NCBI GenBank assembly: GCA_030645535.1
Contig: JAUSNM010000060.1
Span: 1-34,608 of the forward strand
Origin: Gallionella sp.
Lineage (GTDB): Bacteria; Pseudomonadota; Gammaproteobacteria; Burkholderiales; Gallionellaceae
Direction of reading: 5' to 3'
DNA: 34,608 nucleotides
In this document: positions 8,354 through 33,299 of the stretch, one piece after another
Layout of the letters: the number at the start of each line of letters is the position of its first letter
Numbering within the stretch: position 1 is the first letter of the stretch
The notes under the pieces: generated by a model
Databases searched by the model: none
Seen by the model: the letters and a program-made list of their open reading frames with translations, nothing else
What the model was told of the DNA's origin: nothing
Position numbers and translations under genes: made by a program

Positions 8354-8627
8354 CATATTGACAAATCCGGATTATCAACAAAGCCAGCAAACACAATGGC
8401 TTGCGCCACACGACGCATAACACAGCCTGCGCACTTATTACAACATATTGATTATTAACAATTTTTTTTAATATCAAAAAACAGGCAGCGCAACTAAAAC
8501 CCTTACGGCTCACCGCTTTATAGGCATAACCCCCACTCTTATCCACAGAGTTATCCACAGATATTGTGGGTAACCAAAAATTCTCTTTTACAACTAGGGA
8601 TTAGCTCATTGTTGTTAAGAAAAATCT
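8354..8627 (+). repeat. dispersed 274-bp DnaA-box repeat, copy A
   Basis: First of three related 273-274 bp elements. It begins CATATTGACAAATCC and ends TTAAGAAAAATCT. Conserved landmarks are TTGCGCCACACGAC, ACAACATATTGATTATTAAC, ATATCAAAAAACAGGCAGC, ACCCTTACGG, the three-box core at 8539-8573 and GGGATTAGCTCA. It lies in the 534-bp gap between greB and the porin gene. The remainder of that gap (8205-8353, 8628-8738) shows no gene. Relative to copy C the left internal box is decayed (TTATCAACA). Confidence 0.9.
8539..8573. promoter_or_regulatory. DnaA-box triplet in repeat copy A
   Basis: TTATCCACA at 8539-8547 and 8551-8559 exactly match the DnaA box consensus TTATNCACA. Box three, TGTGGGTAA at 8565-8573, is an inverted variant (TTACCCACA). 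Spacers are 3 and 5 bp. All 35 bases are identical in the other two copies. Confidence 0.75.
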
Positions 8628-8738
8628 GGGAGAAAGCCCTTTCGGAAGTTTCCACAAAGCGGTCGATCAAAATGGAGCACGCTGTTTTTTCAGTTTCAAC
8701 AAGCCGTCATTGCGCAGCGTCTGTGGCGTTCCGGAAGG

Positions 8739-10076
8739 TCAGAGGAGAATCTCACAGCGTAGCCCGATCACGGTGGCGTTTTTGATCCCGGGTGCCAGGC
8801 CCGGGTTGAAAATGCGCTGGATATTCGGCTGTATAACCAGCCAGGGATTGAGCTGGACACGGTAGGTGACTTCTACTGCGGTTTCGTTGCAGGGGATATT
8901 GATGCCGACGGCTTGCTGGGCGAGACGGTATTTCTCGCCGGCGCCAGATCTTGTGGCGGCGAATCCTGCGTAATCGTCCACCCGGCCGGTTATCAGCCCC
9001 CGCACACGCAGCCCGATGCTGGCGGAGTAGTCGAAGATATTGACGTTTTTTTCCGCCTGGCCGTAGCGAAAAAATGCGGTCACATCGCGCTCCATGTCAT
9101 CCGCACGGTACAGGCTGTTTTCCATCAGCAGATAGATGCCCATATTTTTGCGTTGCAAGGGATTCCCGGCGGGATCATTGTCGAACAGGTCGTCAAAACG
9201 CTTGCTGTAGGACCAGTAACCGATAGCGTACTTGCCGATGGGCTCGTAGCGCTGCTCCAGTTTTTCCGCCTGACTCAGGATCACCCCTCTCCCCGGCTCG
9301 ATGTTCGGATCGGTCATGTGATGTGCTTCGCCGGGGCTGTAGGCGATTTCTGCCACGAGCAACGAGCCGTCTCCATGAAATGGATTAATGCGGGTCCAAT
9401 GAGGTTTACGACCGCCCCCCGGGTTGCCATCGAGCACTGCCGCTTGTGCGTAGAAAATCGGCGAGGGCTGATACTTTACCCGTACGCCCAGTGCGGAAAA
9501 CGGGTAAACAGAAGGTCCGTTTTGCCCGGTTTGCGCCAGCTCCGCCGCCATACCGAAAGAGGGATGGAGGAAAATCCCGGAAGAATCCGTGACGTAAAAC
9601 TCCGTGTCTACCGGATAGACACCCGCCAGAACGGACAGGGTGGAACTGAATAAATTCTTGTTGAACCAGGCCTGATACAGCTTGGGATTGTTTTCATTTA
9701 CCTCGCCGTTGTCCACCCCCATCAGGCTGCCCACGTAAGCGGCGTTCATCTTGCCACCGCTGTTGAGCACCACGTGGATGAAGGCCGTGCTGTCGGGAAT
9801 GCCCCACAGCTTGCCTGTATCCAGCCCGACTTTCAGTTCCATGCCCTGCATGTAATCACGCCCCTGCTTGATTCCCCCTGACGGGTTGGTCATCAGCGTG
9901 CCCTTGAACAGCAGTTCGGTGTTGATACCCTTTTCGCTCCAGGCGCTGCGGGTGCCGTTCCAATCCCCGCTGAAAGTTTCCGCCGCCCAGTCATCGGCAC
10001 CTTGCGCTATGCAGGGCAGAACCATCATCAGCAGCACACCGATAGCAGGAAAAAACCGGCATTTCTTTTCCGGCAT
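8739..10076 (-). CDS. OprB-family carbohydrate-type porin
   Basis: A 445-residue outer-membrane protein. The ATG at 10076 was chosen because AAGGA lies upstream and a signal peptide follows at once (MPEKKCRFFPAIGVLLMMVL, cleavage near AQGADD). The mature part has porin-like alternating strands with family landmarks: GDWNGTRSAWSEKGI near the N-terminus, YQAWFNKNLF, SILAGVYPVDTEFY-like text (SVLAGVYPVDTEFYV) and a C-terminal strand ending in hydrophobics (CEILL). OprB-family proteins are 16-strand channels, some sugar-selective; the substrate cannot be read from sequence. It lies 164 bp downstream of the MCP gene but probably has its own promoter. Repeat copy A lies just beyond its 3' end. Confidence 0.85.
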   Translation of the reverse strand: MPEKKCRFFPAIGVLLMMVLPCIAQGADDWAAETFSGDWNGTRSAWSEKGINTELLFKGTLMTNPSGGIKQGRDYMQGMELKVGLDTGKLWGIPDSTAFIHVVLNSGGKMNAAYVGSLMGVDNGEVNENNPKLYQAWFNKNLFSSTLSVLAGVYPVDTEFYVTDSSGIFLHPSFGMAAELAQTGQNGPSVYPFSALGVRVKYQPSPIFYAQAAVLDGNPGGGRKPHWTRINPFHGDGSLLVAEIAYSPGEAHHMTDPNIEPGRGVILSQAEKLEQRYEPIGKYAIGYWSYSKRFDDLFDNDPAGNPLQRKNMGIYLLMENSLYRADDMERDVTAFFRYGQAEKNVNIFDYSASIGLRVRGLITGRVDDYAGFAATRSGAGEKYRLAQQAVGINIPCNETAVEVTYRVQLNPWLVIQPNIQRIFNPGLAPGIKNATVIGLRCEILL

Positions 10077-10222
10077 ATACTTCCTTCCCCCTGAAGGCAG
10101 CGGATTGACTGTCAATATATGAACCTGAAAAAACGGCTGCACCCGAAACGACAGTAGTTTTATCATCAATAGCGACTCAGTGAGCGTCTTTTGCTCACCT
10201 AGTCCGATATTGAGTTGCTTCA

Positions 10223-10243
10223 TCAGAAACGGTCAAAGTCCTA
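10223..10243 (-). other. amber codon followed in frame by DFDRF and stop
   Basis: The codons after the upstream MCP stop are GAC TTT GAC CGT TTC TGA, so the frame reads stop-DFDRF-stop. The sister MCP gene has CAG GAC TTT GAA CGT TTC TAG at the matching place (QDFERF). The simplest explanation is a CAG-to-TAG change that removed a conserved C-terminal pentapeptide. Its pattern (aromatic at positions 2 and 5) matches the CheR-tethering pentapeptide class (NWETF in E. coli receptors). Confidence 0.85.
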
Positions 10244-12253
10244 CGCTGTTTTGCAGCGACGCTTCATATGGCTCAGCATGCTGATCACTTTGGTCGAAAT
10301 CACCGCATACTCGCCGGCGAGCATCTTTTCGGCTTCGCCCGCCTGGCCCTGCTGCACGCTACGGATGATACGGGCGGCGCAACGATGGAAGCTGGCATGA
10401 TCCTGGCGAAGCTGCCGAAAGTCGTCGTCAGTAGAAAAACGTTGGCCCTCTTCGTAGATCCACTTTCCCAGCGCGCAGGCATTATCTTTCTCGGCTGCAG
10501 CGGGATCGGGGCACTTGTCGTGGTTGGTGGTACACGTGCGCAGTTTCGTTTTCCACTGGCTATGAGCCTCGACGGCTGCGGTGAACATCTGCGGATCAGC
10601 GTCGAGCGGCACCACGCCTGCCGTTTTGTCAGCAGGTTTTTTGGCAGCTGTCCTGGTCAAAACCGGCGCCGGGCTGCGACTCGGGCTGCGGCGCACTGCG
10701 GCAATGACCTGAGCGCCTGCATCGTCCATTTTGAAGAACGTCATGACACTTTGCAGTTGCTCGGTCTGGCTGCTCATTTCCTCCGCCGTTGCCGCCAGTT
10801 CCTCCGAGGCGGAAGCATTCTGCTGTGTGGTCTGGTTGAGTTGTCCCATCGCGCCGTTGATCTGCGCGACGCCAGTGGATTGCTCCGACGAGGCGGAGGC
10901 GATCTCCTGCACCAGATCGGAAGTCTTGTTGATGGAGGGGACTATATCATCGAGCAACTTGCCGGCCTTCTCCGCCAGGCTCACGCTGCTGCTGGCGAGT
11001 TCGCCGATTTCCCGTGCGGCCACCTGGCTGCGTTCGGCCAGCTTGCGCACTTCAGCCGCCACCACCGCAAAGCCTTTGCCGTGTTCTCCGGCGCGTGCCG
11101 CTTCAATCGCGGCATTCAGCGCCAGCAGGTTGGTCTGGTAGGCGATATCGTCCACGATGCCGATCTTTCCGGCGATCTTCTTCATCGCCTCGACCGTGCT
11201 GCCCACGGCCTGCCCGCCTTCGGTCGCCTCCCTGGCAGCCTTGCTGGCCATACTGTCGGTGACTTTGGCATTCTCGGTATTCTGGTTGATCGAGGCGGTC
11301 ATCTGTTCGATGGAGGCGGTGGTCTCTTCCACGCTGGCTGCCTGCTCAGAAGATGATTGCGACAACGATTGCGCGGTGGCGCTGATTTCTTCCGAGGCGC
11401 TGGCAAGCGAATCCGCGTTTGAGCGCACGGCGGTGATGATTTCGGTAAGCTTTTCGACCATGCCGCGAATGGCAGCCAGCAAACTTGTGGTGTCGTCCGG
11501 TTTGGTTTCAATCCGAACCGTGAAGTCTCCGGATGCGATCTTGCCGACAAGCTGCGACACATACATCGGTTCGCCGCCCAGTTGCTGAAGGATGCTGCGT
11601 ATCATCAGAATACCCATGGTAAAGGCGAGTAATACACCCAGAACTATGGATGCCACGCCAACCGTGCGTGTTGCGGAATATTCCTGCACCGCCTTGCCGT
11701 ACTCCTCCTTACCTACATCGATTTGCAACTGGAGCAGCTTATGGATCGTTTCTGTATTCGACGTGAAAGCCGGGCCTGTTTCCTTCACAACGGTGGAATT
11801 GGCTTGCAGATAATCGCCTGCCTTGATGAATTCCAGTGCTTTGTTCCGCGCAGCCTGGTAAACCTTGCGTTTCGCCAGAAATTCATCGGTCAGTATTTTC
11901 TCCTCCGGCGTATGGAAGGTGGTCATGTAACCCTCCCAGTTTTTGTTGTTATTCCGGGTATTTACCGCCATCTTGTCGGTGTGAAATGAAAGGGGATGAT
12001 CGTGCAGCTTGCTCTCGGGCAGGCGCGGGTCGTGCATCAGCATCAGATGAACCTGGCGCTGGTTTTCTGCCTGGAGCAGATTGATTTCCGCCAATTGGCC
12101 GGCAGCAATCATCCGGTCCTCATAAATGGTGCGCAATCTTTCGTTGGAAGAATTCATCCCGCGCAGACCCAGCAAACCGATGACGATGAGCAGAGCAGAC
12201 AGCAAACCGATGATGGAAATCAACTTTGTTTTAATCGTCATATTGCTGAACAT
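10241..12253 (-). CDS. methyl-accepting chemotaxis protein with C-terminal CZB domain
   Basis: A 670-residue receptor. TM1 at about 10-30, then a periplasmic four-helix-type sensor rich in histidines (about 74-94, [20 protein letters not shown]), TM2 at about 197-218, HAMP to about 272 and the cytoplasmic coiled coil with hairpin tip [19 protein letters not shown] near 392-410. Residues 560-660 form a CZB zinc-binding domain with candidate ligands His564, Cys593, His619 and His623. CZB domains of other receptors sense zinc or reactive oxidants. The ATG at 12253 was chosen because GGGAGG lies upstream. The signalling region is almost the same as in the MCP at 13093-14778. Translation ends at TAG just before a conserved DFDRF pentapeptide. 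Confidence 0.93.
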
Positions 12254-12388
12254 ACCAACCTCCCGGGTAAAGAAATGCCTAACGGGCATGGCAAAAAGCC
12301 ACCCCTGATAATGCAAAGATTCTCGCAGGGATGATGCCCGACGGGCATCAACTCGCAAAGTCGCCATGCCCGTTTCCCTATTGCGAGT

Positions 12389-12407
12389 TATTGTCCACTG
12401 GACAATA
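12389..12407. promoter_or_regulatory. 19-bp palindrome upstream of the CZB receptor gene
   Basis: TATTGTCCA-C-TGGACAATA is a perfect inverted repeat with 9-bp arms around one base, about 136 bp upstream of the receptor ATG and in the cheW-MCP spacer. No T-tract follows on either strand, so an operator for a dimeric regulator is more likely than a terminator. The factor is unknown. A second palindrome, GATGCCCG-A-CGGGCATC (12333-12349), lies nearer the gene. Confidence 0.5.
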
Positions 12408-12531
12408 TACCTGCTAACATCTTTTCAACTTTCCCCCGCACGCAGGAGAAAGGGCAAACGAATCGCTACGCGTGTTTCACGTTAAAGACTTACTCCAGCA
12501 GCAAGATTCTGCGAGCTGAATAGCTTGCCTG

Positions 12532-13083
12532 TCAGGCAGCCGCCTCAGCCTGAGCCGCTGGCATCGCGCCAGCTGCCTGGCCCAGCATTGACAACTCATC
12601 CACTGACAGCACCCTGTCGGCATCCAGAATAATGACGAACTTGCCTGCCACCTTGCCCATGCCATGAATGAAGTCCACGCGTATTTTGGCGCCAAAAGCC
12701 GGCGGCGGTTCTATCTCGCTGCGCGGAATTTCCAGCACTTCGGAAACGCTGTCCACCATCACGCCGATGTCCTGCTTCGATTCATCACTGCCCGCCACTT
12801 CGATGATGACGATGCAGGTACGGCGCGAAACTTCTGTCTTGCCACGTCCGAAGCGCGCCGACAAATCCACGACCGGCACCACGCTGCCACGCAGGTTGAT
12901 GACGCCCCGGATGAAGCCGGGCATCATCGGCACGATGGTCAGGTTGCCGTATTCGATGATTTCCTTGATATTGAGGATGGCGATGGCAAACATTTCGCCG
13001 CTCAACAGAAAGGTGAGATATTGGTGATCTTCAGCGGCATTCGCAGCTTGTGCGATGACCGGCAAATTATTAGCTGTGCTCAT
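12532..13083 (-). CDS. cheW: chemotaxis coupling protein CheW
   Basis: A 183-residue adaptor that links receptors to CheA. The CheW fold starts at about residue 20 (QYLTFLLSGEMFAIAI), with the motifs IIEYGNLTIVPMMPGFIRGV, INLRGSVVPVVDL (about 63-75), GVMVDSVSEVL and the late IILDADRVLS. The tail is alanine-rich. AGGAG lies six bases before the ATG. It sits between the two receptor genes, 9 bp after the first, so it is clearly cotranscribed with that one. Confidence 0.95.
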   Translation of the reverse strand: MSTANNLPVIAQAANAAEDHQYLTFLLSGEMFAIAILNIKEIIEYGNLTIVPMMPGFIRGVINLRGSVVPVVDLSARFGRGKTEVSRRTCIVIIEVAGSDESKQDIGVMVDSVSEVLEIPRSEIEPPPAFGAKIRVDFIHGMGKVAGKFVIILDADRVLSVDELSMLGQAAGAMPAAQAEAAA

Positions 13084-13092
13084 GATGAACTC

Positions 13093-14778
13093 CTAGAAAC
13101 GTTCAAAGTCCTGTTCATTGGGCGCGCCGCTGGCGGGCTTGGCGGCAGGTTTTTTGGCGGACATTTTGGATAGCTTAGGCGCCGGACTGCGACCAGGACC
13201 TGCACTGTGGCGCACTGCGGGAATACCCTGAGCGCCTGTGTTGTCCAGTTTGAAGAATGTCATGACATTTTGCAGTTGCTCGGTCTGGCTGCTCATTTCC
13301 TCCGCCGTTGCCGCCAACTCCTCCGAAGCGGAAGCATTCTGCTGCGTGGTCTGGTTGAGCTGTCCCATTGCGCTGTTGATCTGCGCGACGCCAGTGGATT
13401 GCTCCGATGAGGCAGAGGCGATCTCCTGCACCAGCTCTGAGGTCTTGTTGATACTGGGTACGATCTCATCGAGCAACTTGCCGGCCTTTTCCGCCAGGCT
13501 TACGCTGCTGCTGGCGAGTTCGCCGATTTCCTGTGCGGCCACTTGGCTGCGTTCGGCCAGCTTGCGCACTTCAGCCGCCACCACCGCGAAGCCTTTACCG
13601 TGTTCTCCGGCGCGGGCCGCTTCAATCGCGGCATTCAGCGCCAGCAGGTTGGTCTGGTAGGCGATATCGTCCACGATACCGATCTTGCCTGCGATCTTTT
13701 TCATCGCATCAACCGTGCCGCCCACGGCCTGCCCGCCTTCGGTCGCTTCCTTCGCGGCTTTGCCGGCCATGCTGTCGGTGACTTTGGCGTTCTCGGTGTT
13801 CTGCGTGATCGATGCAGTCATCTGCTCGATGGAGGCGGTGGTCTCTTCCACGCTGGCGGCCTGTTCACTTGATGATTGCGACAGCGATTGCGCGGTTGCA
13901 CTGATTTCTTCCGAGGCGCTGGCAAGCGAATCCGCGTTTGAGCGCACGGCGGTGATGATTTCTGTCAGCTTGGCGACCATGTTTTGCATGGCCATCAGCA
14001 ACTGGCCGGTTTCATCCCTGGAATTCGCTTCGATCCTGACGTTCAGGTTGCCCTCGGCCAGGTTATTAGCCACATCCACGGCTTCGGCAAGCGGGCGAGT
14101 AATGCTGCGTGTCAGCCAGAAGGCGAGAACCATGGTGAACAGAATGGCGATTGAGGACAGCACAAACATCGTGTTGCGGGCGCTGACGTAGGTTTCTTCA
14201 GCCTCCTTTGCCTTATTCTTCATTTGCTCTTCCTGATGGTTGATCAGGGCGGTGACGGCGCTCATGTAGTTGTGTTGCATGGGGCGTATGTCTTCAAGCA
14301 GGTATTGGGTGGCAGCATCACGCTTGGCTTCGGCGCTATTGTCGCCCGAGGTTTTTGCCTTTAAATAACTCGCCGACAGTTCCAGAAATTTGTCTTGCCC
14401 CGCTACAAAAACGCTACGTGCGTCGGTTACGCCCTTTACCAATGCTTTACCCGTGTCGCTCCTGGCGGTTTGCTCCAGCTTGTCGAGGTTCTCAATTATG
14501 GTCTTGCGTTGCGCCTGGATCGTGTCGAGTTGACCCTGGATGGTTTTTTCATCTTTCGCGAGCAGCACCGTGCGCATGGCGCGGGCGATGGCGTTGATGC
14601 CTTCGTTAATGTTGTTGGCTTGCATGACTTTGGGGAAAGCATCATTGGTCACTATGTTCACGCTTTCGTCGATAGCAGACATACCCCTGATGCCGATCCC
14701 GGACAAGATGACCAGCACCAGCAGCACAAGGGCAAAGCCTGCCCCGAGTTTTACGCCTATTTTCAGGTTCTTGAACAT
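13093..14778 (-). CDS. methyl-accepting chemotaxis protein, 4HB type
   Basis: A 561-residue receptor with TM1 at about 10-30, a periplasmic four-helix-bundle-like sensor to about 200, TM2 ([19 protein letters not shown], about 205-223), HAMP and a cytoplasmic signalling domain. The C-terminus is [13 protein letters not shown] fits the CheR-binding pentapeptide pattern. AAGGAG lies six bases upstream of the ATG. The ligand is unknown. It follows cheA by 38 bp and precedes cheW by 9 bp. The signalling domain is nearly identical, even at DNA level, to that of the CZB receptor downstream, while the sensor halves differ. That points to duplication with sensor replacement, or to gene conversion. 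Confidence 0.95.
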
Positions 14779-14816
14779 TTCATTCTCCTTAAATAAAACA
14801 AATAGTCAGATTTGCA

Positions 14817-17415: not shown

Positions 17416-17997
17416 TACCGCCTCCCATGCGTCGGGGTTATGCCACTATGGAGTTCAACGAATGCGCTTGTCACCACGACAGGCGCAGATGGCAACCATT
17501 CAACAGATGTCGACTATCGCACACCAGGCGGGCAAGAGCTATCAGATTATCCCTATTTTCAACAGGGAATAGCTGTGTATTGTTGTAAGAATTTTCTTAT
17601 CTGCAAAAATCAAACAGCGATCAATCAGCTAACCCGTGTTGTACGGCATAAACATCTGAAGTCAGCCACACTGTTTGCAACCTTTTGGAATTAAAGGCCT
17701 GCCGCTGGTTGTCTGTGACATGAGCGTTGAAATTTTAGTAAAAAAAAGGGCAACCTTTGAAAAGTTGCCCAAAATACGGGAGGAGAGTTTTAGATACCGG
17801 TTTAAAAATGGTCTCTAAAGCACAGTCAGCGCCATGCCTTGCAAATTCTACCCAACTAATCATGCCAGGAACATTAGAAAATTCTTATTTTATATAAGAA
17901 AAATGCTTTGTTGAGCAAGAATTCAATTTCTATGCAGTAACCGATTAATTACATGAGTAAATTCAGCGACGCACGATATATAAAAAAGTACCGCAAA
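17416..17997. other. 582-bp intergenic region upstream of the chemosensory operon
   Basis: It should hold the promoter of the STAS/cheA operon, but no convincing sigma-70, sigma-28 or sigma-54 site was recognised. The only strong element is the terminator at 17739-17770. The frames here lack recognisable domains or ribosome-binding sites. The stretch 17870-17997 is AT-rich. Confidence 0.5.
17739..17770 (-). terminator. Rho-independent terminator, minus strand
   Basis: GGGCAAC (17748-17754) pairs with GTTGCCC (17764-17770), and three further A-T pairs close inside after one mismatch. Eight T residues follow on the minus strand. The nearest gene read into it is the GIY-YIG gene, more than 540 bp upstream with repeat copy B in between. 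It may therefore end a transcript that crosses or starts in that repeat. Confidence 0.8.
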
Positions 17998-18270
17998 CAT
18001 ATTGACAATCCAAAATTACTCACAAAGTCAGGAGCCGCGCCACGTTGCGCCACACGACACTTAACAAAACTTTCATACTTATAGTAACCTGTTGTTTTTT
18101 AAGATGTATTTTTAATATCAAAAAACAGGCAGCATAAGAAAAACCCTTATGGGTCACCGCGTTAAAGGCACAATCACCCGCCTTATCCACAGAGTTATCC
18201 ACAGATATTGTGGGTAATCAAAAATTCCCTTTTGCGACCGGGGATTAGCTCACTGTTACTAAGAAAAATC
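17998..18270 (+). repeat. dispersed 273-bp DnaA-box repeat, copy B
   Basis: It begins CATATTGACAATCC and ends CTAAGAAAAATCC, with the same landmarks in the same order as copy A: TTGCGCCACACGAC, AATATCAAAAAACAGGCAGC, ACCCTTATGGGT, the three-box core at 18183-18217 and GGGATTAGCTCACTG. The left internal box is a near match (TTACTCACA). It lies between the chemosensory operon and the GIY-YIG gene, and no target-site duplication is visible at its ends. Confidence 0.9.
18183..18217. promoter_or_regulatory. DnaA-box triplet in repeat copy B
   Basis: TTATCCACA at 18183-18191 and 18195-18203, plus the inverted variant TGTGGGTAA at 18209-18217. Sequence and spacing are the same as in copies A and C. 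Confidence 0.75.
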
Positions 18271-18316
18271 CTGAAAGCATGCTGAAGAAAAACTCGAAAT
18301 ACCGGCCTTCTGTAAC

Positions 18317-18643
18317 TTACGCCTGCCACACCCCGAAACCCGCACTACGCAAATCAATCCCTATCTCGATTTCCCTGTCGCACGCATCAACATAGGACAT
18401 AGGGTTAAATCCTTCGTAGAGGTCAGGCAACAAGCGCAGCCCATATTGCTTAACGTACCTGTTGGATTGAATTCCCGCCTTGTGTTTATCGAACCGCACG
18501 TCAGGATCAAGTCCCGTCATGCCGACATACACACAGGGCTTGCCTGTGATGTAGCCGGGGTTGCACTTTTTGAACTTGCCCTCGTACAACACGTCTTTGG
18601 ACAGTTCGATTACGTAGACGTTGTGGTGGTTGCGGCGTGCCAT
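18317..18643 (-). CDS. GIY-YIG-like small protein
   Basis: A 108-residue protein taken from the ATG at 18643 (MARRNHHNVYVIEL). VYVIEL and VYVGMTGLDPDVRFDKHKAG are a variant of the GIY-YIG nuclease core (VYV then YVG, with the downstream Arg and His). A stretch of about 15 residues (YEGKFKKCNPGYITGKP) lies between the two strands. The full catalytic Glu pattern was not confirmed, so nuclease activity is uncertain. The frame is open further upstream (to 18820), but that part overlaps the DUF1653-like gene and looks non-coding. No good Shine-Dalgarno is present. Confidence 0.65.
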   Translation of the reverse strand: MARRNHHNVYVIELSKDVLYEGKFKKCNPGYITGKPCVYVGMTGLDPDVRFDKHKAGIQSNRYVKQYGLRLLPDLYEGFNPMSYVDACDREIEIGIDLRSAGFGVWQA

Positions 18644-18728
18644 AGTTAGGAGCGGAATTAACAGAACTGCGCAATGCAGGATATGCGATCGATATGAACA
18701 AGGTAATGCAAACCCGGCCACGCCACCA

Positions 18729-18920
18729 TCAGTTAATCGGGACGAACCGCTGCACGGTCTTACCTTCGTGTTGCACAAGCTCAAAAAATACGTCGCGGGG
18801 TCGAGTCCAGACAGGGCCATCCTCGGATTTGTAAACGATCATGATGACACCGGGATCGGCCTCAAGCCTTGCCTCGCAAACGATCTCGTAGATACCACCC
18901 TTGTAGTGCCGATACTTCAT
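18729..18920 (-). CDS. DUF1653-like protein
   Basis: A 63-residue protein from MKYRHYKGGIYEIVCEARLE, with VIMIVYKSEDGPVWTRP and DVFFELVQ. This is the short beta-rich DUF1653 pattern (YRHYKGxxY, V.Y....G..W.RP..MF). The family's function is unknown. A GAGGG-type site precedes the chosen ATG; the open frame extends to 18974 without support. It lies 85 bp upstream of the GIY-YIG-like gene on the same strand. Confidence 0.75.
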   Translation of the reverse strand: MKYRHYKGGIYEIVCEARLEADPGVIMIVYKSEDGPVWTRPRDVFFELVQHEGKTVQRFVPIN

Positions 18921-18980
18921 TCTGCCCTCACCCTCAAAACTGTCGCAGCAATCTCTCCAGCGAGCGTATAACAAGCCCTG

Positions 18981-19793
18981 TTAAGGCTTGACAGCAATCG
19001 TCCGCAGGTTTCGTTCAATTTTAATGACAATCGACAGAAATACGACCAGCAAGAAAAATCCGAAGAGACCGGCTGCAACATATAACCGCATCATCGCTGT
19101 TGCTTTTTCATGTTGAATTTCAGTTGCAAGTTCTTCCTGCTTTTCCTTGGCTAGCGCTATTTTTTTATTAAACAACTCGGTGTAACTGTTAATTACCGAG
19201 CCCACCATGTTTATCGGTTTGTCATTCACCAGCGGAATCATCTGTTCCAACCCTGTAGCTTCACCACTTTGTTCCGGAGAGGGCGCAACTGCGACCATCG
19301 GACTCCCTGCAATTGCTGTCACCCTGAGTGATTTAAAGCTTGAATCCATAACACTAGTCAGCCCGGACAAATACTGCGCACGGACCTCATCGGAATCATA
19401 TTTGTTTAATTTTGTATCCAGATACTCGAAGAACCCATTTTTATTCAGCGTCTGAACATTGCCACTGAACTTGCCTATAAAAGTAGCTGCCATCGTGTAG
19501 ATTTTTTCGTATGCAGCTTGTTGAGTCGCATTTGCAGCTTTCACACCAGCCTTATTGGATGCTGACGGCTCATTAGCCTGAGCCACCGTCTTTTCTTCCG
19601 GCGCAACCAGCGCCATCACATCCTTTAGATCCACTGATACAGTTTCAATTTTTGGCTCAGCGGTTGGCAAGACACCTTTAATTGACCACCCGCCAAGTGC
19701 AATCGCAGCAATCAACAAAAGACTGGATGCTGCAATAACAACAACACGAAGAATTCCAAGGTATGAATTTTCTAATTTTTGAATAATTGACAT
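18981..19793 (-). CDS. uncharacterised protein with N- and C-terminal membrane segments
   Basis: Not recognised. From the ATG at 19793 it has 270 residues: a first membrane segment at about 14-36 (GILRVVVIAASSLLLIAAIA), a hydrophilic region of about 190 residues and a second membrane segment near 240-262 (LYVAAGLFGFFLLVVFLSIV) with a basic end. A helix rich in Lys/Glu (KKIALAKEKQEELATEIQ) precedes the second segment. The layout resembles a receptor-like or scaffold protein with a large periplasmic domain, but there is no HAMP or signalling domain. An alternative ATG at 19838 would add 15 residues; neither has a clear ribosome-binding site. Confidence 0.65.
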   Translation of the reverse strand: MSIIQKLENSYLGILRVVVIAASSLLLIAAIALGGWSIKGVLPTAEPKIETVSVDLKDVMALVAPEEKTVAQANEPSASNKAGVKAANATQQAAYEKIYTMAATFIGKFSGNVQTLNKNGFFEYLDTKLNKYDSDEVRAQYLSGLTSVMDSSFKSLRVTAIAGSPMVAVAPSPEQSGEATGLEQMIPLVNDKPINMVGSVINSYTELFNKKIALAKEKQEELATEIQHEKATAMMRLYVAAGLFGFFLLVVFLSIVIKIERNLRTIAVKP

Positions 19794-19980
19794 GGCTTTT
19801 TTAAAAGAACCTGTTTTTATGAATGAAGGGCGTTGCATGCCCGAAAATTGCGAATGAAAACAGCATCACAGTGGTAAGGATTTGATGGATTATTCACGGT
19901 AGTTGTGGGAAAGTTCGACGTCAGTCAGCTTATCGGACTGGCCGATATTCTGACGCCGAGACTCTCACAATGCCGGCGAC

Positions 19981-23978: not shown

Positions 23979-23981
23979 ATC

Positions 23982-24056: not shown

Positions 24057-24061
24057 GTTTC

Positions 24062-25102: not shown

Positions 25103-25131
25103 TTTTTATTTCCTTAACAATTAAATTCAAA

Positions 25132-25199: not shown

Positions 25200-25215
25200 C
25201 AAAACCTTAAAATAC

Positions 25216-26202: not shown

Positions 26203-27236
26203 TGCTGAACCACCGTATTTTCAGGATCGAGGTTCGGGGATTGAGAATTGCGGGAAAACCGCCGCCCCGTTATCGGATCGTTCATCGCTCCTCGCTCCTC
26301 GCTCCTGCTTTCCAGCACCGCTTCAACCAGATAACGCGGCCGATGGCGCACTTGCTGATAGATGCGGCCTACATATTCACCCAACAGGCCGATGCCGAAC
26401 AACGTGATGCCGATCATGAAAAACACCAGCGCGAACAGCGTAAACATCCCTTCCGCCTCCGGGCCGATGATCAGACGACGCACCACGAGAAAGACGAAAA
26501 ACAGCGCCGATAATACCGAGGTTAGCATGCCGACCATTGAAAACATCTGCAACGGCACCAGCGAAAACCCGGTCATCAGGTCGAAATTGAGGCGGATCAG
26601 GCTGTACAGCGAATATTTCGATTCGCCTGCCAGGCGTTCATCGTGCCCCACCACCACTTCGGCGGGGTTGCGCGCAAAGGTGTAGGCCAGCGCGGGAATG
26701 AAGGTATTCACTTCGCGACAGCTGTTGATCGCAGCGATGATACCCCTGTCGTAGGCGCGAAACATGCAGCCCTGATCGGTCATCTTGATGCGCGTGATGC
26801 GTTCGCGCAGATTGTTCATCGCACGCGATGCAACATGACGCCACCAACTGTCACTGCGCTGACGACGGATCGAGCCGACATAGTCGTGCCCCTCATCCAT
26901 CTTGGCCAGCAACAGGCCGATGTCTTCCGGCGGATTCTGCAGGTCCGCATCCAGCGTCACCACGCGCTGCCCGCGCGACTGCTCGAAACCTGCCATGATC
27001 GCCATGTGCTGACCGAAGTTGCCGTTGAACAGGATCACCCGCGTCACATCGGGGCGCTTCTGGAACTGTTCGCGCAGTATCGCCGCCGAGCGGTCGCGGC
27101 TGCCGTCGTTGATGAAGACGATCTCGTAACTGATGCCCAGCTTGTCGAATGCCGGATACACGCGGTCGAACAAGGTTTGCAGCCCTGCTTCTTCGTTGTA
27201 AACAGGAATGACGACGGAAAGTTGTATGGTATTCAT
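26199..27236 (-). CDS. arnC: undecaprenyl-phosphate 4-deoxy-4-formamido-L-arabinose transferase
   Basis: Transfers L-Ara4FN from UDP to undecaprenyl phosphate at the inner membrane. It is a GT2 enzyme of 345 residues: SVVIPVYNEEAGLQTLFDRV, FINDGSRDRSA, LDADLQNPPEDI (DxD-type metal site near 96-98), and a QGCMFRAYDR / GESKYSLYSL region. Two C-terminal membrane segments lie at about 235-257 and 270-293. About 30 residues after YLVEAVLES are additional compared with the usual end and are encoded by three CGCTCCT units (other strand) plus following sequence. The stop overlaps the formyltransferase ATG. Confidence 0.95.
   Translation of the reverse strand: MNTIQLSVVIPVYNEEAGLQTLFDRVYPAFDKLGISYEIVFINDGSRDRSAAILREQFQKRPDVTRVILFNGNFGQHMAIMAGFEQSRGQRVVTLDADLQNPPEDIGLLLAKMDEGHDYVGSIRRQRSDSWWRHVASRAMNNLRERITRIKMTDQGCMFRAYDRGIIAAINSCREVNTFIPALAYTFARNPAEVVVGHDERLAGESKYSLYSLIRLNFDLMTGFSLVPLQMFSMVGMLTSVLSALFFVFLVVRRLIIGPEAEGMFTLFALVFFMIGITLFGIGLLGEYVGRIYQQVRHRPRYLVEAVLESRSEERGAMNDPITGRRFSRNSQSPNLDPENTVVQQ
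26286..26306. repeat. period-7 array (CGCTCCT) x3 inside arnC
   Basis: Three exact units, the reverse complement of AGGAGCG. It is therefore inverted relative to the array at 26131-26158, with about 127 bp between them that hold the arnC/formyltransferase junction. On the coding strand the units read AGGAGCG and are followed by ATGAACGA, resembling the true formyltransferase start. Confidence 0.9.
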
Positions 27237-27295
27237 GGGGCGACATTCTACCGCACAGGGGGCGGATAGCGAAATCCGGACGTTATTTTATAGGC

Positions 27296-27358
27296 TTAGC
27301 GGTACACATCATCATGACTGCCGATATCAAGCAGGATGATTTCCTGCTCTGTAACCAT
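27296..27358 (-). pseudogene. C-terminal remnant of a RelE/YafQ-type toxin
   Basis: The frame reads MVTEQEIILLDIGSHDDVYR then stop. ILLDIGxHDxVYR is the usual C-terminal end of RelE/YafQ-family mRNA interferases. The preceding 70 or so residues of such a toxin are absent: the upstream frame is out-of-frame antitoxin sequence. A deletion has probably fused the end of the toxin gene to the antitoxin gene. Confidence 0.65.
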
Positions 27359-27530
27359 CATTAGCAGCCTCGTCCACATCCAGCGCTGCCAACAGTTCAG
27401 CGGCTGTCTTAAATTTCCTGACACGCCCGACCTCAACATCCGCAAGCGACGCACGGACACGGGCATAGTGCGCCTCCTGCTCCACCACAATGCCGCGACG
27501 CTTACCTTTTTTGGCAGGGATGGCGTTCAT
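27327..27530 (-). CDS. antitoxin-like protein of a decayed type II toxin-antitoxin pair
   Basis: A 67-residue protein, MNAIPAKKGKRRGIVVEQEA... with VGRVRKFKTAAELLAALDVDE, typical of the C-terminal region of RelB-like antitoxins. AAGGAG lies seven bases upstream of the ATG, so it can be translated. Its last 12 or so residues run out of frame into the remnant of the toxin gene. It lies within the arn operon between arnB and arnC. With no intact toxin it may be on the way to loss, or act as a solitary antitoxin. Confidence 0.6.
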   Translation of the reverse strand: MNAIPAKKGKRRGIVVEQEAHYARVRASLADVEVGRVRKFKTAAELLAALDVDEAANDGYRAGNHPA

Positions 27531-27606
27531 ATCCAGACTCCTTTTAGCACTAAATTAAGTACCAAAAAGATACACAATCGGGCAAGGGATAGCAAACTGA
27601 ACTTGC

Positions 27607-27634
27607 AGATTCAGGATCCAAGATTCAGGAATTC
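27607..27634. repeat. period-7 array (AGATTCA-type) x4
   Basis: AGATTCA, GGATCCA, AGATTCA, GGAATTC, followed by looser copies (AGAAATT). It lies in the gap between the frameshifted gene and the antitoxin-like gene. Nothing else is seen in 27531-27687. Confidence 0.75.
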
Positions 27635-27687
27635 AGAAATTCAAATGATAGGCATCGCGACATTCAAAGAATCTTACCAAGTTTAGG

Positions 27688-28216
27688 TCACATTTCTGGT
27701 TCCCAGTCTTGGTGAGCTTCAACCACGTTCACTCCAGCATTTCGAAGCAGAGCAGCGAACGAAGTGAAATGATCCGCGCCGCAGATAAACAACAGAGGCC
27801 ACACATTAAACTCTTGAATTCGGCGCAACCAGCACTGCTCCCGAATTTGGTCAGATACAACTCGCCCAGATTCGATAATTTCGGCTTCAATTTGCTCCGA
27901 TGTCCAACCATTCAGAAACCCATCTAATTTGATGTCGTTAATCCTGCCGAATGCCCAGCGCCACCCGCTCTTTGGGAGAAGGGTCTGAAAGTTGATGATA
28001 CAAGCCTAACTCAACAGATAGTTGTTGAGCGATAGACTCAGCAACCCTATTTTCATGCAGAGCATGTAAGCTCATTTCTTCAGCAATTGCACGCACTTTT
28101 TGCAGAATGCAAAGTTCGCGAATAGTGCTTCTGAAACTTTTAATTCCTACTGCGTGCCTCTCATTCAGAGGCAACTGGTATTTATGAGAGGTGCCAACGA
28201 GTATGACAGTAAGCAC
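27688..28216 (-). pseudogene. frameshifted uncharacterised gene in the arn operon
   Basis: Two frames join into one protein of about 175 residues. The first, from a GTG at 28216 with AAGG upstream, starts MLTVILVGTSHKYQLPL and runs to ALGIRQD, where TAA (27940-27938) stops it. Removing one T of the GATTAAC at 27937-27943 restores DNDIKLDGFLNGWTSEQIE and continues to VWPLLFICGADH and DWEPEM, stop at 27688. Both halves look protein-like. I do not recognise a named family; the pattern (short N-terminal VGTSHKYQ strand, central IAEEMS, late CGADH) resembles uncharacterised conserved proteins. Either a real single-base mutation or a sequence error explains it. Confidence 0.7.
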
Positions 28217-28269
28217 GGAGACACCCTTCGACAATTGAAAAACAGGCTCATGCAATTGACACTCAAACC

Positions 28270-29394
28270 TTACCCAGCCAGCACCTCTCTCATAGCAGCA
28301 CAGGTGCGTTCGACATCGGCTATCGTCATCGCGTAGAACATCGGCAAGGAGACGATCTGGCGCCCGACGCGTTCGGCAACAGGGAACATGCCTTCCTTGA
28401 AACCCAGCCCGCGATACAGACTGAACAGATGGATAGGCGCGTAATGAAAACCGATGCCGATGTTGTAGGCCTTCATCTTTTCCATGAACTCGGGGCGCGT
28501 GATCCGTTCCGGCAGCACGATCTGAAACAGGTGCCAGTTGGTGTTTTCGAAATCAGCAGGTGGCAGTTGCGCGCCGGTTTGCGCCTCGAAGTCCGTACCC
28601 AGCGTCTTAAAATAATGCTGTGCAAGTTTGCGGCGGTGCGCGGTGATGTCAGGCAGTTTCGCGAACTGACCCAAGCCGATTGCGGCGGCGATGTCGGTCA
28701 TGTTGTATTTGCCGCCCAACACGTCCACGTCGATGCCGTCCCAGCCGCTGCGCGACACGCCCTGCAGGCGATATTTCTCGGCAAGCACAGCTTCCGCCGC
28801 ATTGTTCAATACCAGACAACCGCCCTCGGAGGTGGTGATGTTCTTGTTGGCCTGAAAACTGAACGAGACGAAATCGCCAAACGAACCAACAGGTTTTCCC
28901 TGCCAGCGTGACCCGATGGCTTGCGCGGCATCTTCGATCACGCGCAGCTTGTACTTTGCCGCTATGGCATACAGCCGGTCCATATCCAGCGGGCGGCCCG
29001 CCAGATACACCGGAATGATCGCACGGGTTCTGGACGTAATCGCAGCTTCCACACGATCCAGATCGATGTTGCGCGTGACCGGGTCGATGTCGGCAAACAC
29101 CGGAGTCGCACCCACCTCGAGGATCACGTTGGCGGTCGCCACCCACGAGATCGGCGTTGTGATGACTTCGTCCCCTGCGCCAATGCCGGCGATGCGCAAG
29201 GCGATTTCCATCGTGCAGGTGCCGGAATTGAAGGTGCGCACCGGACGCCCGCCGAAGTAATCGGACAACTGCTTCTCGAACTCAGCCACCCTGGGGCCGC
29301 TGGTGAGCCAGCCGGAGCGCAGCACGTCGGACACCGCAGAAATAGTCGCCTCGTCTATGGTGGGCTTGGAAAAAGGAAGGAAATTATTGTTCAT
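28270..29394 (-). CDS. arnB: UDP-L-Ara4-keto aminotransferase
   Basis: A PLP enzyme that transfers the amino group from glutamate to UDP-L-Ara4-keto, forming UDP-L-Ara4N. It is a DegT/DnrJ/EryC1-type protein of 374 residues: FSKPTIDEATISAVSDVLRS, FNSGTCTMEIAL, TPISWVATANVI, VIEDAAQAIGS and SFQANKNITTSEGG, which carries the PLP lysine (near 185). The late FHYAPIHLFSLYR also fits ArnB. The ATG follows the arnE stop by one base. After its stop the operon is interrupted by about 1 kb of decayed genes before arnC. Confidence 0.95.
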   Translation of the reverse strand: MNNNFLPFSKPTIDEATISAVSDVLRSGWLTSGPRVAEFEKQLSDYFGGRPVRTFNSGTCTMEIALRIAGIGAGDEVITTPISWVATANVILEVGATPVFADIDPVTRNIDLDRVEAAITSRTRAIIPVYLAGRPLDMDRLYAIAAKYKLRVIEDAAQAIGSRWQGKPVGSFGDFVSFSFQANKNITTSEGGCLVLNNAAEAVLAEKYRLQGVSRSGWDGIDVDVLGGKYNMTDIAAAIGLGQFAKLPDITAHRRKLAQHYFKTLGTDFEAQTGAQLPPADFENTNWHLFQIVLPERITRPEFMEKMKAYNIGIGFHYAPIHLFSLYRGLGFKEGMFPVAERVGRQIVSLPMFYAMTIADVERTCAAMREVLAG

Positions 29395-29395
29395 T

Positions 29396-29767
29396 TTATG
29401 CCCGCGAAATGATGATTACACCGAGGATGATCACGCCCATGCCGACCAGTTTGACCGGATTGAAGGCTTCACCAAGCAGATACCACGCCGCCACGGCATT
29501 CACCACATAGGCCATGGACAGCATCGGAAAGGCGATGCTGACCGGCACACGCGACAACGCCAGTATCCACACCACCACGCTGATTGCGTAACAAAACAAG
29601 GCGACGATGATATGCCACTCGGTCGCCAGTTTCATGCCTATCGGCACGATATTCTCGACGCTGAACGCAAAATTCCCTATCGAATTGGTGCCTGCCTTCA
29701 TCAGTATCTGGGCTGCCGCATTGAGCATCACGCCGGTAAAAATCAGAGAAAAACTAATCAGGTTCAT
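29396..29767 (-). CDS. arnE: ArnE/EmrE-type flippase subunit
   Basis: A 123-residue protein of the EamA/SMR type with four membrane segments: about 3-23, 41-61, 67-88 and 100-121. The start MNLISFSLIFTGVMLNAAAQ and the QILMKAG motif fit ArnE/ArnF, which together move undecaprenyl-phosphate-L-Ara4N to the periplasmic side. Only one such gene is present, where E. coli has the pair arnE-arnF, so a homodimer is likely. The ATG overlaps the arnT stop as ATGA. The ATG at 29767 was chosen over the longer frame, whose extra part is arnT read in another frame. Confidence 0.88.
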   Translation of the reverse strand: MNLISFSLIFTGVMLNAAAQILMKAGTNSIGNFAFSVENIVPIGMKLATEWHIIVALFCYAISVVVWILALSRVPVSIAFPMLSMAYVVNAVAAWYLLGEAFNPVKLVGMGVIILGVIIISRA

Positions 29768-31428
29768 GGTTTTTTCACCACGATGTGTTGTGTATCTTGA
29801 AAAATGATCTTCATGGCTAAACCCTGTTGTTGTAACTGTGGATAAACATATACCGGCATGATAGCCAGCGCTTCCGGCTGTACATCCCATACCTTGGCGA
29901 AGGCGTCGAGCGTCGGAACCCAGCGCTGCGGCTCCTGCCTGATGCCGAAGCCCATTTCATCCTGATACTGCACCAGCGTGAAGGTGCGCTTCAGATAAAA
30001 CGGCAGGGTCTGCTCATAAGTCAGCACCGAGTAGAACGGAATATCAGGCTTGACCTCGGCACGAATGGCCTCGGCGATGTGTTTGGCGGAGCGTTCACGC
30101 GCCACGGTGTTGTAGCCGGACACACCGATTTGCGCTGCCAGCAAAGCCGACATTGCGATCACCAGAACAGCCACAGGCTTTTGCGCGCGCCACAGCAATG
30201 CCATCCCCCCCAGCAAACCTGCCAGCAAAATCAGCGCTGCAGTAACCAGCCATGCGCTGTAATGGGGATATAGCTCGATCTGATTCGATGTGTCGGCAAA
30301 CTTGCCGACATTAATTGCCAGCACAAGAAACAACAGCGCAACAGGTACGGCCGGCAGAATTTGCCAGAACAACACCCGCTCACGTATCTCGGCGATGCGG
30401 CGTCCCATCAACAGCGCTAACGCCGGAAACATCGGCAACAGATAGGACGGCAACTTGGAGCCGGAGATGGTGAAAAACACATAGATGAATATCGCCCAGA
30501 TCAACAGAAAGCGCGCAGGGTTGAATGACTTGTCCGCACTCGCGCCGCGGCTTATCCCCTGATTACCAAATGCAGTGCGAAACAGCGAGTCGAACATCAG
30601 CACTGTCCAGGGCAATGCACCTGCGAGCAGGATAGGCACGAAGTAATACCAGGGCTGGTAGCGCCCAAGATCCTTGGTGGTAAAGCGCGTGTAATGCTCG
30701 TAGATAAAGAAGCGGTCGAAGAACTCGGGGTTGGCTTGCATCACCAGATAGAACCAGGGTCCGGTGATCAGCAGAAACACTGCCATGCCGGATAACCAGT
30801 GCATGCGCTTCAATACGGTGAAATCGCGCTGCACCATGCAATAAATGAACACCGCCGTGCCCGGCAGAATGATACCCATCAGCCCCTTGGAGAGCACCGC
30901 CAGCGCCATGCCCGCCCAGGCCAGCAGCATCCAGTTACGCCGCTGCACAACATTCGTCTCAGTTTGCGCAAGCAGCAACGCAAAAATCCCCAGCGTGATA
31001 AAGAACGTCACACCCATGTCCAGCGTGTTGATGTGGGCCATCATCACATACAGCATGCTGCTGCAAAGAATAAGCGTGGCGTAACCAGCCGCCTCGCGGC
31101 CGAACAGACGCTGCCCGGCAAACCAGACAAGAAACAAACCAGCGAATCCCGTGAGACCAGCCCAAAGCCGCGAAGTCCACTGATGCTCGCCGAACACGGT
31201 GTAAGCGGTCGCAGTCGCCCAGTATTGCAGCGGCGGTTTCTCGAAATATTTGAGATCGTTCAGGCGCGGGGTGACCCAGTCGCCGGAATGCACCATCTCG
31301 CGGGGGATCTCGGCATAGCGCCCTTCATCCGGCTTGATCAGTGTGCGGTATTCAAGATTGGCAAACCAGATTATTGCGACGCTGATCAGCAACCACCAGA
31401 GCTGCCTGTTTGAAATGCGACTGATCAT
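29764..31428 (-). CDS. arnT: lipid A 4-amino-4-deoxy-L-arabinose transferase (GT83)
   Basis: A 554-residue inner-membrane GT-C enzyme that moves L-Ara4N from undecaprenyl phosphate to lipid A phosphates, lowering affinity for cationic peptides such as polymyxin. The N-terminal signature PDEGRYAEIPREMV, then SGDWVTPRLN and YFEKPPLQYW, is diagnostic for the ArnT/PMT-like group. Many membrane segments follow and a soluble domain forms the C-terminus. The ATG at 31428 was chosen: GAGG lies upstream and MISRISNRQLWW starts the first helix. The longer frame to 31551 overlaps a zinc-ribbon fragment. It is the first arn gene. Related GT83 enzymes may use other sugars, but the full arn set supports L-Ara4N. 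Confidence 0.92.
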   Translation of the reverse strand: MISRISNRQLWWLLISVAIIWFANLEYRTLIKPDEGRYAEIPREMVHSGDWVTPRLNDLKYFEKPPLQYWATATAYTVFGEHQWTSRLWAGLTGFAGLFLVWFAGQRLFGREAAGYATLILCSSMLYVMMAHINTLDMGVTFFITLGIFALLLAQTETNVVQRRNWMLLAWAGMALAVLSKGLMGIILPGTAVFIYCMVQRDFTVLKRMHWLSGMAVFLLITGPWFYLVMQANPEFFDRFFIYEHYTRFTTKDLGRYQPWYYFVPILLAGALPWTVLMFDSLFRTAFGNQGISRGASADKSFNPARFLLIWAIFIYVFFTISGSKLPSYLLPMFPALALLMGRRIAEIRERVLFWQILPAVPVALLFLVLAINVGKFADTSNQIELYPHYSAWLVTAALILLAGLLGGMALLWRAQKPVAVLVIAMSALLAAQIGVSGYNTVARERSAKHIAEAIRAEVKPDIPFYSVLTYEQTLPFYLKRTFTLVQYQDEMGFGIRQEPQRWVPTLDAFAKVWDVQPEALAIMPVYVYPQLQQQGLAMKIIFQDTQHIVVKKP

Positions 31429-31559
31429 GATATCGTCCTCGATGCCAGCTTTTGCGCGAACGCCATGAAACCGCCGCGCTCGGTCGGCGCATCGCCGCAA
31501 GCTGTGCATTGCCAATCGGTACTGGTAAAAGGTTTTTGACAGGTCAGACAAAATTTCAT
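31425..31559 (-). pseudogene. 44-residue zinc-ribbon fragment overlapping the arnT start
   Basis: The frame begins MKFCLTCQKPFTSTDWQCTA and includes a CxxC...CxxC zinc ribbon (Cys4, Cys7, Cys18, Cys21), then GFMAFAQKLA and a short tail to the stop. It resembles the N-terminal end of some class I methyltransferases found in glycan clusters (zinc ribbon, then G...FAP.LA), but the methyltransferase domain is missing. Its TGA overlaps the arnT ATG (ATGA), and GGGA precedes its own ATG. It may be a remnant of a deleted gene that now acts as a leader coupling ribosomes into arnT. It could also be a true small protein. Confidence 0.6.
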
Positions 31560-31685
31560 GAATTCATTCCCGGCAAAAAGCCGAAAGGGTTGCGGGCGCA
31601 GATTTTAACGCGTCCTGCATGGATGCTCCAAATTTCTGCGCAGTATCCCTGCGAGAACATTTGCGTAGACAGATGCTTTTTAGAT

Positions 31686-33029
31686 TCAGGCCCCCTGCTC
31701 TTTCACCTCGGTGCGCGCCCATCCCTCTGCAAAAGTGATGCGCAGTTCTGCACCTACGGCTAATTTCCTGGCATCCGACACAAGGTGGCCGTTCTCGTCC
31801 TGCACCAGGCTGTAGCCACGCGCCAGAACTTGCTGCGGGTTGAGCAGAACCAGATGCTGGGCTACCGTATCCAGGCCGGCCTGCCGCCTGTGTTGCGCGT
31901 TGTGCACAGCCTTTACCAGCCGTCCGGCAAGATGAGTCTGCCTGTCCTGCATCCGGTTGAAGTCGCTGCCCGCGCCGCACAGTCGCTGCGCATAGGACCG
32001 GCATCGCCACTGCTGCTGATCCAGGTCGTGTGCGTAGCCGCGCTGCAAGCGTTGTTGCAACTGATCCAGGTGCAGCTTCTGGCGTTGCAACTGCTGTGCG
32101 GGATGGACTACGCGGCGCTGCAAGTAATCCACCGCCTGCATGGCATTTTGCAGCCGGTTGCGCTGTGCGCGCAGCAGATGCTGCGCCATGTCGCGCAACC
32201 CTTGCAACAAGGCATGGCGATCCGGCACGACGCGCTGTGCTGCGGCTGTGGGTGTCGGCGCACGTTCATCGGCGACAAAATCAGCGATGGTAAAATCGGT
32301 CTCGTGACCCACGCCGCTGACAATCGGAATTGCACTGGCGAATATGGCACGCGCCACGACTTCTTCGTTGAAAGCCCACAAATCTTCGATGCTGCCACCG
32401 CCGCGACACAGAATCAGTACACAGCACTCGGCGCGCTGATTGGCGATTTCAATGGCTTGCGCAATTTTCTCCGCACTGCCGGCACCCTGCACCGGCGTGG
32501 GATACAACACCACCGGCACACCGGGCAAGCGCAGCTTCAAGGTGGTCAGCACGTCACGCAACGCGGCGGCCTGAGGGGATGTGATGATGCCGATACGCCT
32601 GGGGAAGGCGGGTAACAATCGTTTGCGCGCAGCGGCAAACAGCCCTTCATCTTCCAGTTTCTGCTTGAGCTTTGCGAATTGTTCATACAGCACGCCCAGG
32701 CCCGCCGGGCGCAGCTGCTCAACTGTCAGCTGAAAATCGCCGCGCGCCTCGTAAAGAGAAGCTGCTGCCAGCACTTCGACCTGCGTCCCGTTAGCGATGG
32801 TTTTATCCAGAGACTGATTTTTATGACGGAACATCACACAGCGAACTTGTGCCTGTTCATCCTTGAGCGCGAAATACCAGTGACCGGAGGCGGCCTTTAC
32901 CAGATTACAAATTTCTCCGCGCACCCACAGCAAGGGAACGTTGCCCTCCAGTAACTGATTGATTGCACGAGTGAGTTCAGACACGCGCAGCACGCGGGGT
33001 CGGGCTTCAAAAAAAAGGTCTTCAGACAT
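31686..33029 (-). CDS. xseA: exodeoxyribonuclease VII large subunit
   Basis: Large subunit of the single-strand exonuclease with XseB. It has 447 residues with an N-terminal OB fold (LRVSELTRAINQLLEGNVPL, then LWVRGEICNLVKAASGHWYF), the catalytic-domain motifs GIITSPQAAALRDVL, LILCRGGGSIEDLWAFNEE (near 205-223) and SGVGHETDFTIADFVAD, and a long coiled-coil region at about 265-390. It ends with the small domain NPQQVLARGYSLV. Its ATG (33029-33027) is the first three bases of repeat copy C, so the whole 5' leader is repeat sequence; no Shine-Dalgarno is seen there. xseB is not adjacent. Confidence 0.96.
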   Translation of the reverse strand: MSEDLFFEARPRVLRVSELTRAINQLLEGNVPLLWVRGEICNLVKAASGHWYFALKDEQAQVRCVMFRHKNQSLDKTIANGTQVEVLAAASLYEARGDFQLTVEQLRPAGLGVLYEQFAKLKQKLEDEGLFAAARKRLLPAFPRRIGIITSPQAAALRDVLTTLKLRLPGVPVVLYPTPVQGAGSAEKIAQAIEIANQRAECCVLILCRGGGSIEDLWAFNEEVVARAIFASAIPIVSGVGHETDFTIADFVADERAPTPTAAAQRVVPDRHALLQGLRDMAQHLLRAQRNRLQNAMQAVDYLQRRVVHPAQQLQRQKLHLDQLQQRLQRGYAHDLDQQQWRCRSYAQRLCGAGSDFNRMQDRQTHLAGRLVKAVHNAQHRRQAGLDTVAQHLVLLNPQQVLARGYSLVQDENGHLVSDARKLAVGAELRITFAEGWARTEVKEQGA

Positions 33030-33299
33030 ATTGACAATCCAGAATTATTCACAAACCCAGAGAACACGCCGCTTTGCGCCACGCCACTCTGACAAAACCA
33101 TCGCGTTCAATACAACATGTTGATTATTAACGACAAATTATCATGACAAAAAACAGGCAAGATAAGAAAAACCCTTACGGGTCGCCACTTTAAAGGCGTA
33201 TCCACCCGCTTTATCCACAGAGTTATCCACAGATATTGTGGGTAAACAAAAATACTCTTTGATATCGCGGGATTAGCTCACTGTTGTTAAGAAGACTCT
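33027..33299 (+). repeat. dispersed 273-bp DnaA-box repeat, copy C
   Basis: It begins CATATTGACAATCC, the CAT being the complement of the xseA start codon, and ends TTAAGAAGACTCT. Landmarks: TTTGCGCCACGCCACT, ACAACATGTTGATTATTAAC, AAAAAACAGGCAAG, ACCCTTACGGGT, the core at 33211-33245 and GGGATTAGCTCACTGTTGTT. This copy also keeps an extra perfect DnaA box, TTATTCACA at 33045-33053. The rest of the xseA-exbB gap (33300-33427) must contain the exbB promoter, which was not recognised. Confidence 0.9.
33211..33245. promoter_or_regulatory. DnaA-box triplet in repeat copy C
   Basis: TTATCCACA at 33211-33219 and 33223-33231, plus the inverted variant TGTGGGTAA at 33237-33245. Sequence and spacing are the same as in copies A and B. 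Confidence 0.75.

Follow-up and report, generated by a model that had tools for sequence, protein, structure and literature searches.

The stretch of Gallionella sp. DNA considered here (contig JAUSNM010000060.1 of assembly GCA_030645535.1, 34,608 nucleotides at its full length and hereafter termed the window) raises a simple question: what is the role of a repeat of about 277 bp, carrying three DnaA boxes, that stands in three of its intergenic gaps? The best answer is that each copy is an element of the type named DnaA-reactivating sequence (DARS), a chromosomal site at which DnaA would be reactivated, and on comparison of sequences we give this reading a probability of roughly three in four. 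It relies on the order, orientation and spacing of the boxes, which are those of the core shared by DARS1 and DARS2 of Escherichia coli; DARS activity is thus predicted from anatomy. The original prediction, made from the letters of the window, held that no named repeat family fitted and offered either a set of replication-linked sites or an undescribed non-autonomous element. The DARS core layout of the triplet overturns the first statement and supports the former of the two interpretations.

The description of the repeat itself has held up well. The three copies share a single orientation and a near-equal length, occupy three unrelated gaps (table 1) and are AT-rich, with a G+C content of 39–41% against 53.9% for the whole window. 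They are 76–78% identical in pairwise comparison, and a BLAST search of their own genome with copy 3 returns the other two at E-values of 7e-54 and 5e-52; in the 40-bp flanks, identity drops to 12/36 and 6/36 columns. The 35 bp of the DnaA-box triplet, claimed to be invariant, are identical in all 35 columns, while the rest of the element agrees in 147 of 241; at the latter rate the chance of 35 matches is 3e-8, with columns treated as independent. The ordered landmarks said to be shared are found in part: CATATTGACAATCC stands unaltered in two of the copies, and CATATTGACAAATCC in copy 1. Copy 3 abuts xseA, its first three bases being complementary to the start codon of that gene. Many more copies were expected in the genome, and the expectation failed: BLAST with one copy and a profile search return the same five matches in an assembly that is 86.6% complete, namely the three window copies and two degenerate tandem copies on another contig (C3).

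Read 5′ to 3′, the core consists of TTATCCACA (box III), 3 nt, a second TTATCCACA (box II), 5 nt and an inverted TTACCCACA (box I). The DnaA box is given as TTWTNCACA in PMC12371093. DARS1 and DARS2 of E. coli have the same order, spacing and orientation, and a review describes their common structure as three boxes at equal spacing, with box I opposite to boxes II and III (PMC5742627). The likeness extends beyond the boxes in the case of DARS1. A profile termed R2, built from 46 hand-picked sites (45 of 66 cluster representatives and one window copy) and containing no enteric sequence, matches E. coli DARS1 with 30.8 bits over model positions 8–153 of 163, whereas E. coli oriC scores 16.3 bits and the region upstream of Gallionella dnaA 15.8. 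DARS1 of E. coli K-12, in the bioD–uvrB gap, differs from the window elements in its weaker boxes III and I, in its neighbouring genes and in a gap that holds no IHF consensus at one mismatch or fewer. DARS2, in the rppH–mutH gap of the same strain, has the core spacing of the window elements together with an IHF-like 13-mer (one mismatch) at −109, and it employs both IHF and Fis (PMC4245941).

The Gallionella genome encodes an 83-residue protein of the Fis family, which reaches 115 bits, short of the curated cut-off of 122 bits, with residues 8–82 matched. In the window copies, an IHF site lies about 110 bp before box II and a Fis-like A-tract about 79 bp before it, and a fourth box-like 9-mer sits near the 5′ end of the element. 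IHF and Fis sites were scored by their mismatches to consensus strings.

Table 1. Positions in the window of the three element copies and of the sites predicted within them.
Feature	Position	Strand	Remarks
Copy 1, element	8354..8630	+	extra copy; greA-like/oprB-like gap
Copy 1, DnaA box III	8539..8547	+	predicted
Copy 1, DnaA box II	8551..8559	+	predicted
Copy 1, DnaA box I	8565..8573	-	predicted
Copy 1, IHF consensus	8441..8453	-	0 mismatches
Copy 1, Fis-like site	8472..8486	.	2 mismatches
Copy 1, fourth DnaA-box-like 9-mer	8372..8380	+	1 mismatch
Copy 2, element	17998..18270	+	extra copy; gap between cheA/STAS side and small open reading frame
Copy 2, DnaA box III	18183..18191	+	predicted
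Copy 2, DnaA box II	18195..18203	+	predicted
Copy 2, DnaA box I	18209..18217	-	predicted
Copy 2, IHF-like site	18085..18097	-	1 mismatch
Copy 2, Fis-like site	18116..18130	.	2 mismatches
Copy 2, fourth DnaA-box-like 9-mer	18016..18024	+	1 mismatch
Copy 3, element	33027..33302	+	divergent xseA/exbB gap; location usual in genus
Copy 3, DnaA box III, TTATCCACA	33211..33219	+	predicted
Copy 3, DnaA box II, TTATCCACA	33223..33231	+	predicted
Copy 3, DnaA box I, TTACCCACA on minus strand	33237..33245	-	predicted
Copy 3, IHF consensus	33113..33125	-	0 mismatches; 110 bp upstream of box II
Copy 3, Fis-like site	33144..33158	.	2 mismatches to 15-mer
Copy 3, fourth DnaA-box-like 9-mer, TTATTCACA	33045..33053	+	0 mismatches to TTATNCACA

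The exact core pattern occurs in at least 119 stretches of DNA, from Marinobacter, Pseudomonas, Azotobacter, Methylococcales, Alcanivorax, Sideroxydans, Paraburkholderia and others. This named set (119 stretches of up to 8 kb, with 120 sites) was chosen by that pattern and is a lower bound. Upstream sequence is sufficient at 114 of the 120 sites, the stretch being too short in 6. With one mismatch or fewer, 84 of these 114 have an IHF site at −114..−106 and 52 a Fis site at −80..−75; shuffled sequences give 0 in both cases, and two other search windows give 1 and 1 for IHF and 0 and 3 for Fis. Box III (two mismatches or fewer) stands at −12 in 86/119 named sites, compared with 0–2 at six other offsets. 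Members of the set are related, so the shuffling provides no strict probability. A second set of 18 sites, those usable among 29 loci, has IHF in 10 and Fis in 7 at the same threshold, and shuffling again gives 0 and 0; here the better-fitting orientation was picked, which favours the motif, and the set may overlap the named one.

Searches of whole genomes extend this distribution. When the spacer between boxes II and I is allowed to vary from 1 to 11 nt, 106 of 276 genomes of the class match and reversed-pattern controls yield 0; the spacer is 5 nt in all but one among the matches listed. At E ≤ 1e-3 the R2 profile matches 259 of the 281 genomes searched in the class, and at E ≤ 1e-8 it matches 223 (hand count). 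By hand tally, the 259 matching genomes divide into 71 with one copy, 117 with two, 37 with three and 34 with four to seven, but in the large searches the filters were stricter and no more than 10, 19 or 39 candidates were scored in any one genome, so that copy counts may be low. In a sample of the phylum, 43 of 46 genomes of the class and 60 of 104 from other classes match (hand count, with 27 unlisted misses assumed to lie outside the class). Half of the matches from other classes (30/60) belong to one family, f176, in which the count rises to nine copies in a genome, the maximum in the sample. The class and f176 give the strongest signal. Separately, two methanotroph records (those behind loci L056 and L098) have head-to-head box pairs at 5-nt spacing, with ten distinct pairs in the first and seven in the second when one mismatch is allowed. 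Two viral contigs from IMG/VR (L164 and L165) carry the exact core pattern; inspected by eye, neither shows an obvious upstream module.

Closer to the window, a genus profile termed R1 (30 copies, many of them taken from genomes later searched) finds at least one copy in all 48 congeneric genomes near Gallionella. The 99 elements in the genus loci that were fetched, which are part of all matches, include 56 with XseA and/or ExbB within 1.5 kb, 15 with a cytochrome b561 gene and 28 with neither, which points to two recurrent locations and to extra copies in the genus. The IHF site (one mismatch or fewer) is at the expected place in 62 of 78 full genus copies, compared with 2 after shuffling, and the Fis site is present in 44 of the 78, a count that has no shuffle comparison; the 78 are those with an exact core, the other 8 of 86 full copies being dropped. 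Copy 3 is 82.6% identical to its counterpart at the xseA–exbB locus of a near relative (G127) and 76% identical to its own paralogs. It occupies the usual location for the genus and is probably the ancestral copy (the tree of genus copies was read without support values), and copies 1 and 2 appear from their sequences to be old extra copies. In one genome (G059), the element and the small open reading frame (ORF) beside copy 2 fall in a single alignment (query 930–1565, 72% identity), so that copy 2 probably has counterparts outside the window genome; no clean empty site emerged from this comparison.

Several observations touch on these locations. The degenerate tandem pair occupies the b561 location: it lies at 69237–69638 of contig C3 (genome G000; 7237–7638 of locus L006), adjoins the cytochrome b561 gene and is about 3 kb from purL. 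Other species have short tandem copies too, which in G012 and G048 likewise lie at b561, and three tandem element copies stand at the xseA–exbB locus of two genomes (L025 and L026, 1204–1980). The small ORF beside copy 2 (18317–18640, minus strand) is 68–83% identical at the DNA level in many congeners; it looks GIY-YIG-like by eye, and as called it has no Pfam match. Elsewhere in the window, a gene for a protein of the 23S rRNA intervening-sequence type (5159–5515) lies between guaA and guaB, and two 300-bp stretches that are 90% identical (10686–10985 and 13205–13504) lie in two adjacent chemoreceptor genes.

A number of results weigh against the DARS-type reading. With the R2 profile, the DARS2 core reaches 12.5 bits and another place in its gap reaches 15.1; E. 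coli oriC and the region upstream of Gallionella dnaA score higher than either, so the tie made by the profile is limited to DARS1. The footprinted IHF sites of DARS2, IBS1–2, are 3 bp apart (PMC4245941) and fit a pair at +217/+233, on the box I side of the core; here the IHF site is on the box III side. The Fis match is weak in every window copy. The proteins encoded beside the E. coli DARS (BioD, UvrB, YbhK, RppH, MutH, YgdQ, Tas, LplT and PtsP, of which BioD and PtsP were searched as pieces) are found at 0/119 named loci. Among the 30 other-class matches outside f176, 6 reach 1e-8 and 24 fall between 1e-8 and 1e-3; these weak matches may be an origin-type background. Across eight genomes, one of them E. 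coli, the sites that were placed lie at 0.08–1.0 of the replichore from dnaA/oriC, and a fixed chromosomal position is unsupported. Five sites of G086 cluster at 0.36–0.53, and those of E. coli are at 0.41 and 0.66. For these distances the origin was taken as dnaA (for E. coli, the oriC of the record), 3 of the 10 sites of wino1 were placed, and the survey omits G013, G058, G067, G313 and G368/G428. Finally, a pure DnaA-titrating role would retain the same boxes.

This last point leads to the alternative of a site like datA, where boxes and IHF would sequester or inactivate DnaA once initiation has taken place, with extra copies making for a stronger brake. The published description of datA (PMC5742627) likewise combines DnaA boxes with one IHF site. 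Additional copies would increase holding capacity, and the fourth box-like 9-mer near the 5′ end is present with one mismatch or fewer in 68 of 78 genus copies (at the best of 16 offsets, with no shuffled control). The fixed 3-nt and 5-nt spacing and the inverted box I are nevertheless the layout of the DARS core, and it is DARS1 that the profile matches, so we regard a datA-like role as unlikely.

Could the element instead be a control region for the transcription of its neighbours, such as xseA, exbB and priA, with DnaA as the regulator? It is intergenic and at xseA adjoins the start codon, and at 26 of the 120 named sites a priA-family gene is the next downstream ORF of at least 90 residues. 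A purL-family gene lies upstream at 18 of the 120 (one representative of each of the priA and purL clusters was named, priA by NCBIfam), and xseA and exbB occur together at 4/119 loci, those of Gallionella, two Sideroxydans and Andreprevotia. The neighbours, then, vary by clade (xseA and exbB, priA, purL or cytochrome b561) while the module is constant, and the two extra window copies adjoin unrelated genes; control of transcription is a distinctly improbable explanation.

A non-autonomous mobile repeat that carries DnaA boxes by chance would account for the dispersed extra copies and for the tandem arrays in the genus. The observations made for the window agree that there is no transposase (0 among 29 ORFs scanned with Pfam), no clear terminal inverted repeat (the longest word that either end has in common with the complement of the opposite end is 4–6 bp) and no target duplication (the 15-bp flanks share words of 3–4 bp at most). 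The paralogs are old, being 76–78% alike, with copy 3 nearer to its G127 counterpart than to them; the xseA–exbB copy is in place in many congeneric species, and among genomes of the class with a match, 188 of 259 have one or two copies. A mobile element was rejected on these grounds and is very improbable.

Strong intergenic conservation would also suit a structured non-coding RNA, a reading we rejected as scarcely credible, since Rfam gives no match to the copies or to 17800–19900 and the covariation check that had been proposed found no compensatory change at any of 9 pairs, all within the inverted boxes, in an alignment of 30 copies. A duplicate of oriC, which resembles the elements in its DnaA boxes and AT-richness, was likewise rejected: the module profile has no match at E ≤ 1 in the dnaA–dnaN gap (L040, 2512–3152), which is assumed to be the origin of this genome with dnaN assigned by eye, DnaA is encoded in none of the 119 named stretches (each of 8 kb or less), and the window elements are intergenic chromosomal sites away from oriC.

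If each copy is a DARS-type element, its working can be sketched from E. coli, where the opposed boxes I and II of DARS bring ADP-DnaA head to head and ADP is freed (PMC8682772), and where DnaA loading is raised by IHF and Fis (PMC4245941). ADP-DnaA would bind boxes I and II in this same opposed arrangement, and IHF and Fis would bend the DNA, leading to the assembly of further DnaA on the element. Release of ADP would then regenerate ATP-DnaA for the next start at oriC. Copies 1 and 2 would be old duplicates in which the core has been kept by selection, and these extra copies with their preserved core would raise the dose of sites in the cell that reactivate or hold DnaA.

The kind of element proposed here is already known. 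In a search of the literature limited to PMC, work on DARS outside the enterics concerns Vibrio cholerae (PMC6090056), and a review speaks of beta or gamma species proximal to E. coli (PMC5742627). As far as that search reaches, what is new is the spread of the module throughout the class, the IHF–Fis module on the box III side and the multiplication of copies in the genus and elsewhere. A broader proposal, on which we find the balance to be even, is that DARS is an old and near-universal form of replication control and not an enteric speciality. The ancestral form would be a compact IHF–Fis–core module, usually present twice per genome, that predates the Gamma/Beta radiation and exists outside the class in f176; DARS1 would be a reduced version and DARS2 a rewired one, with multiplication in Gallionella, in methanotrophs and in f176 serving to tune initiation. 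If the sites do work as DARS, the regeneration of ATP-DnaA could be put to the test in methanotrophs, Azotobacter, Marinobacter and iron oxidisers, and the way in which copy number, spacing and accessory sites vary in nature would allow switch and titration models of initiation to be tested against each other.

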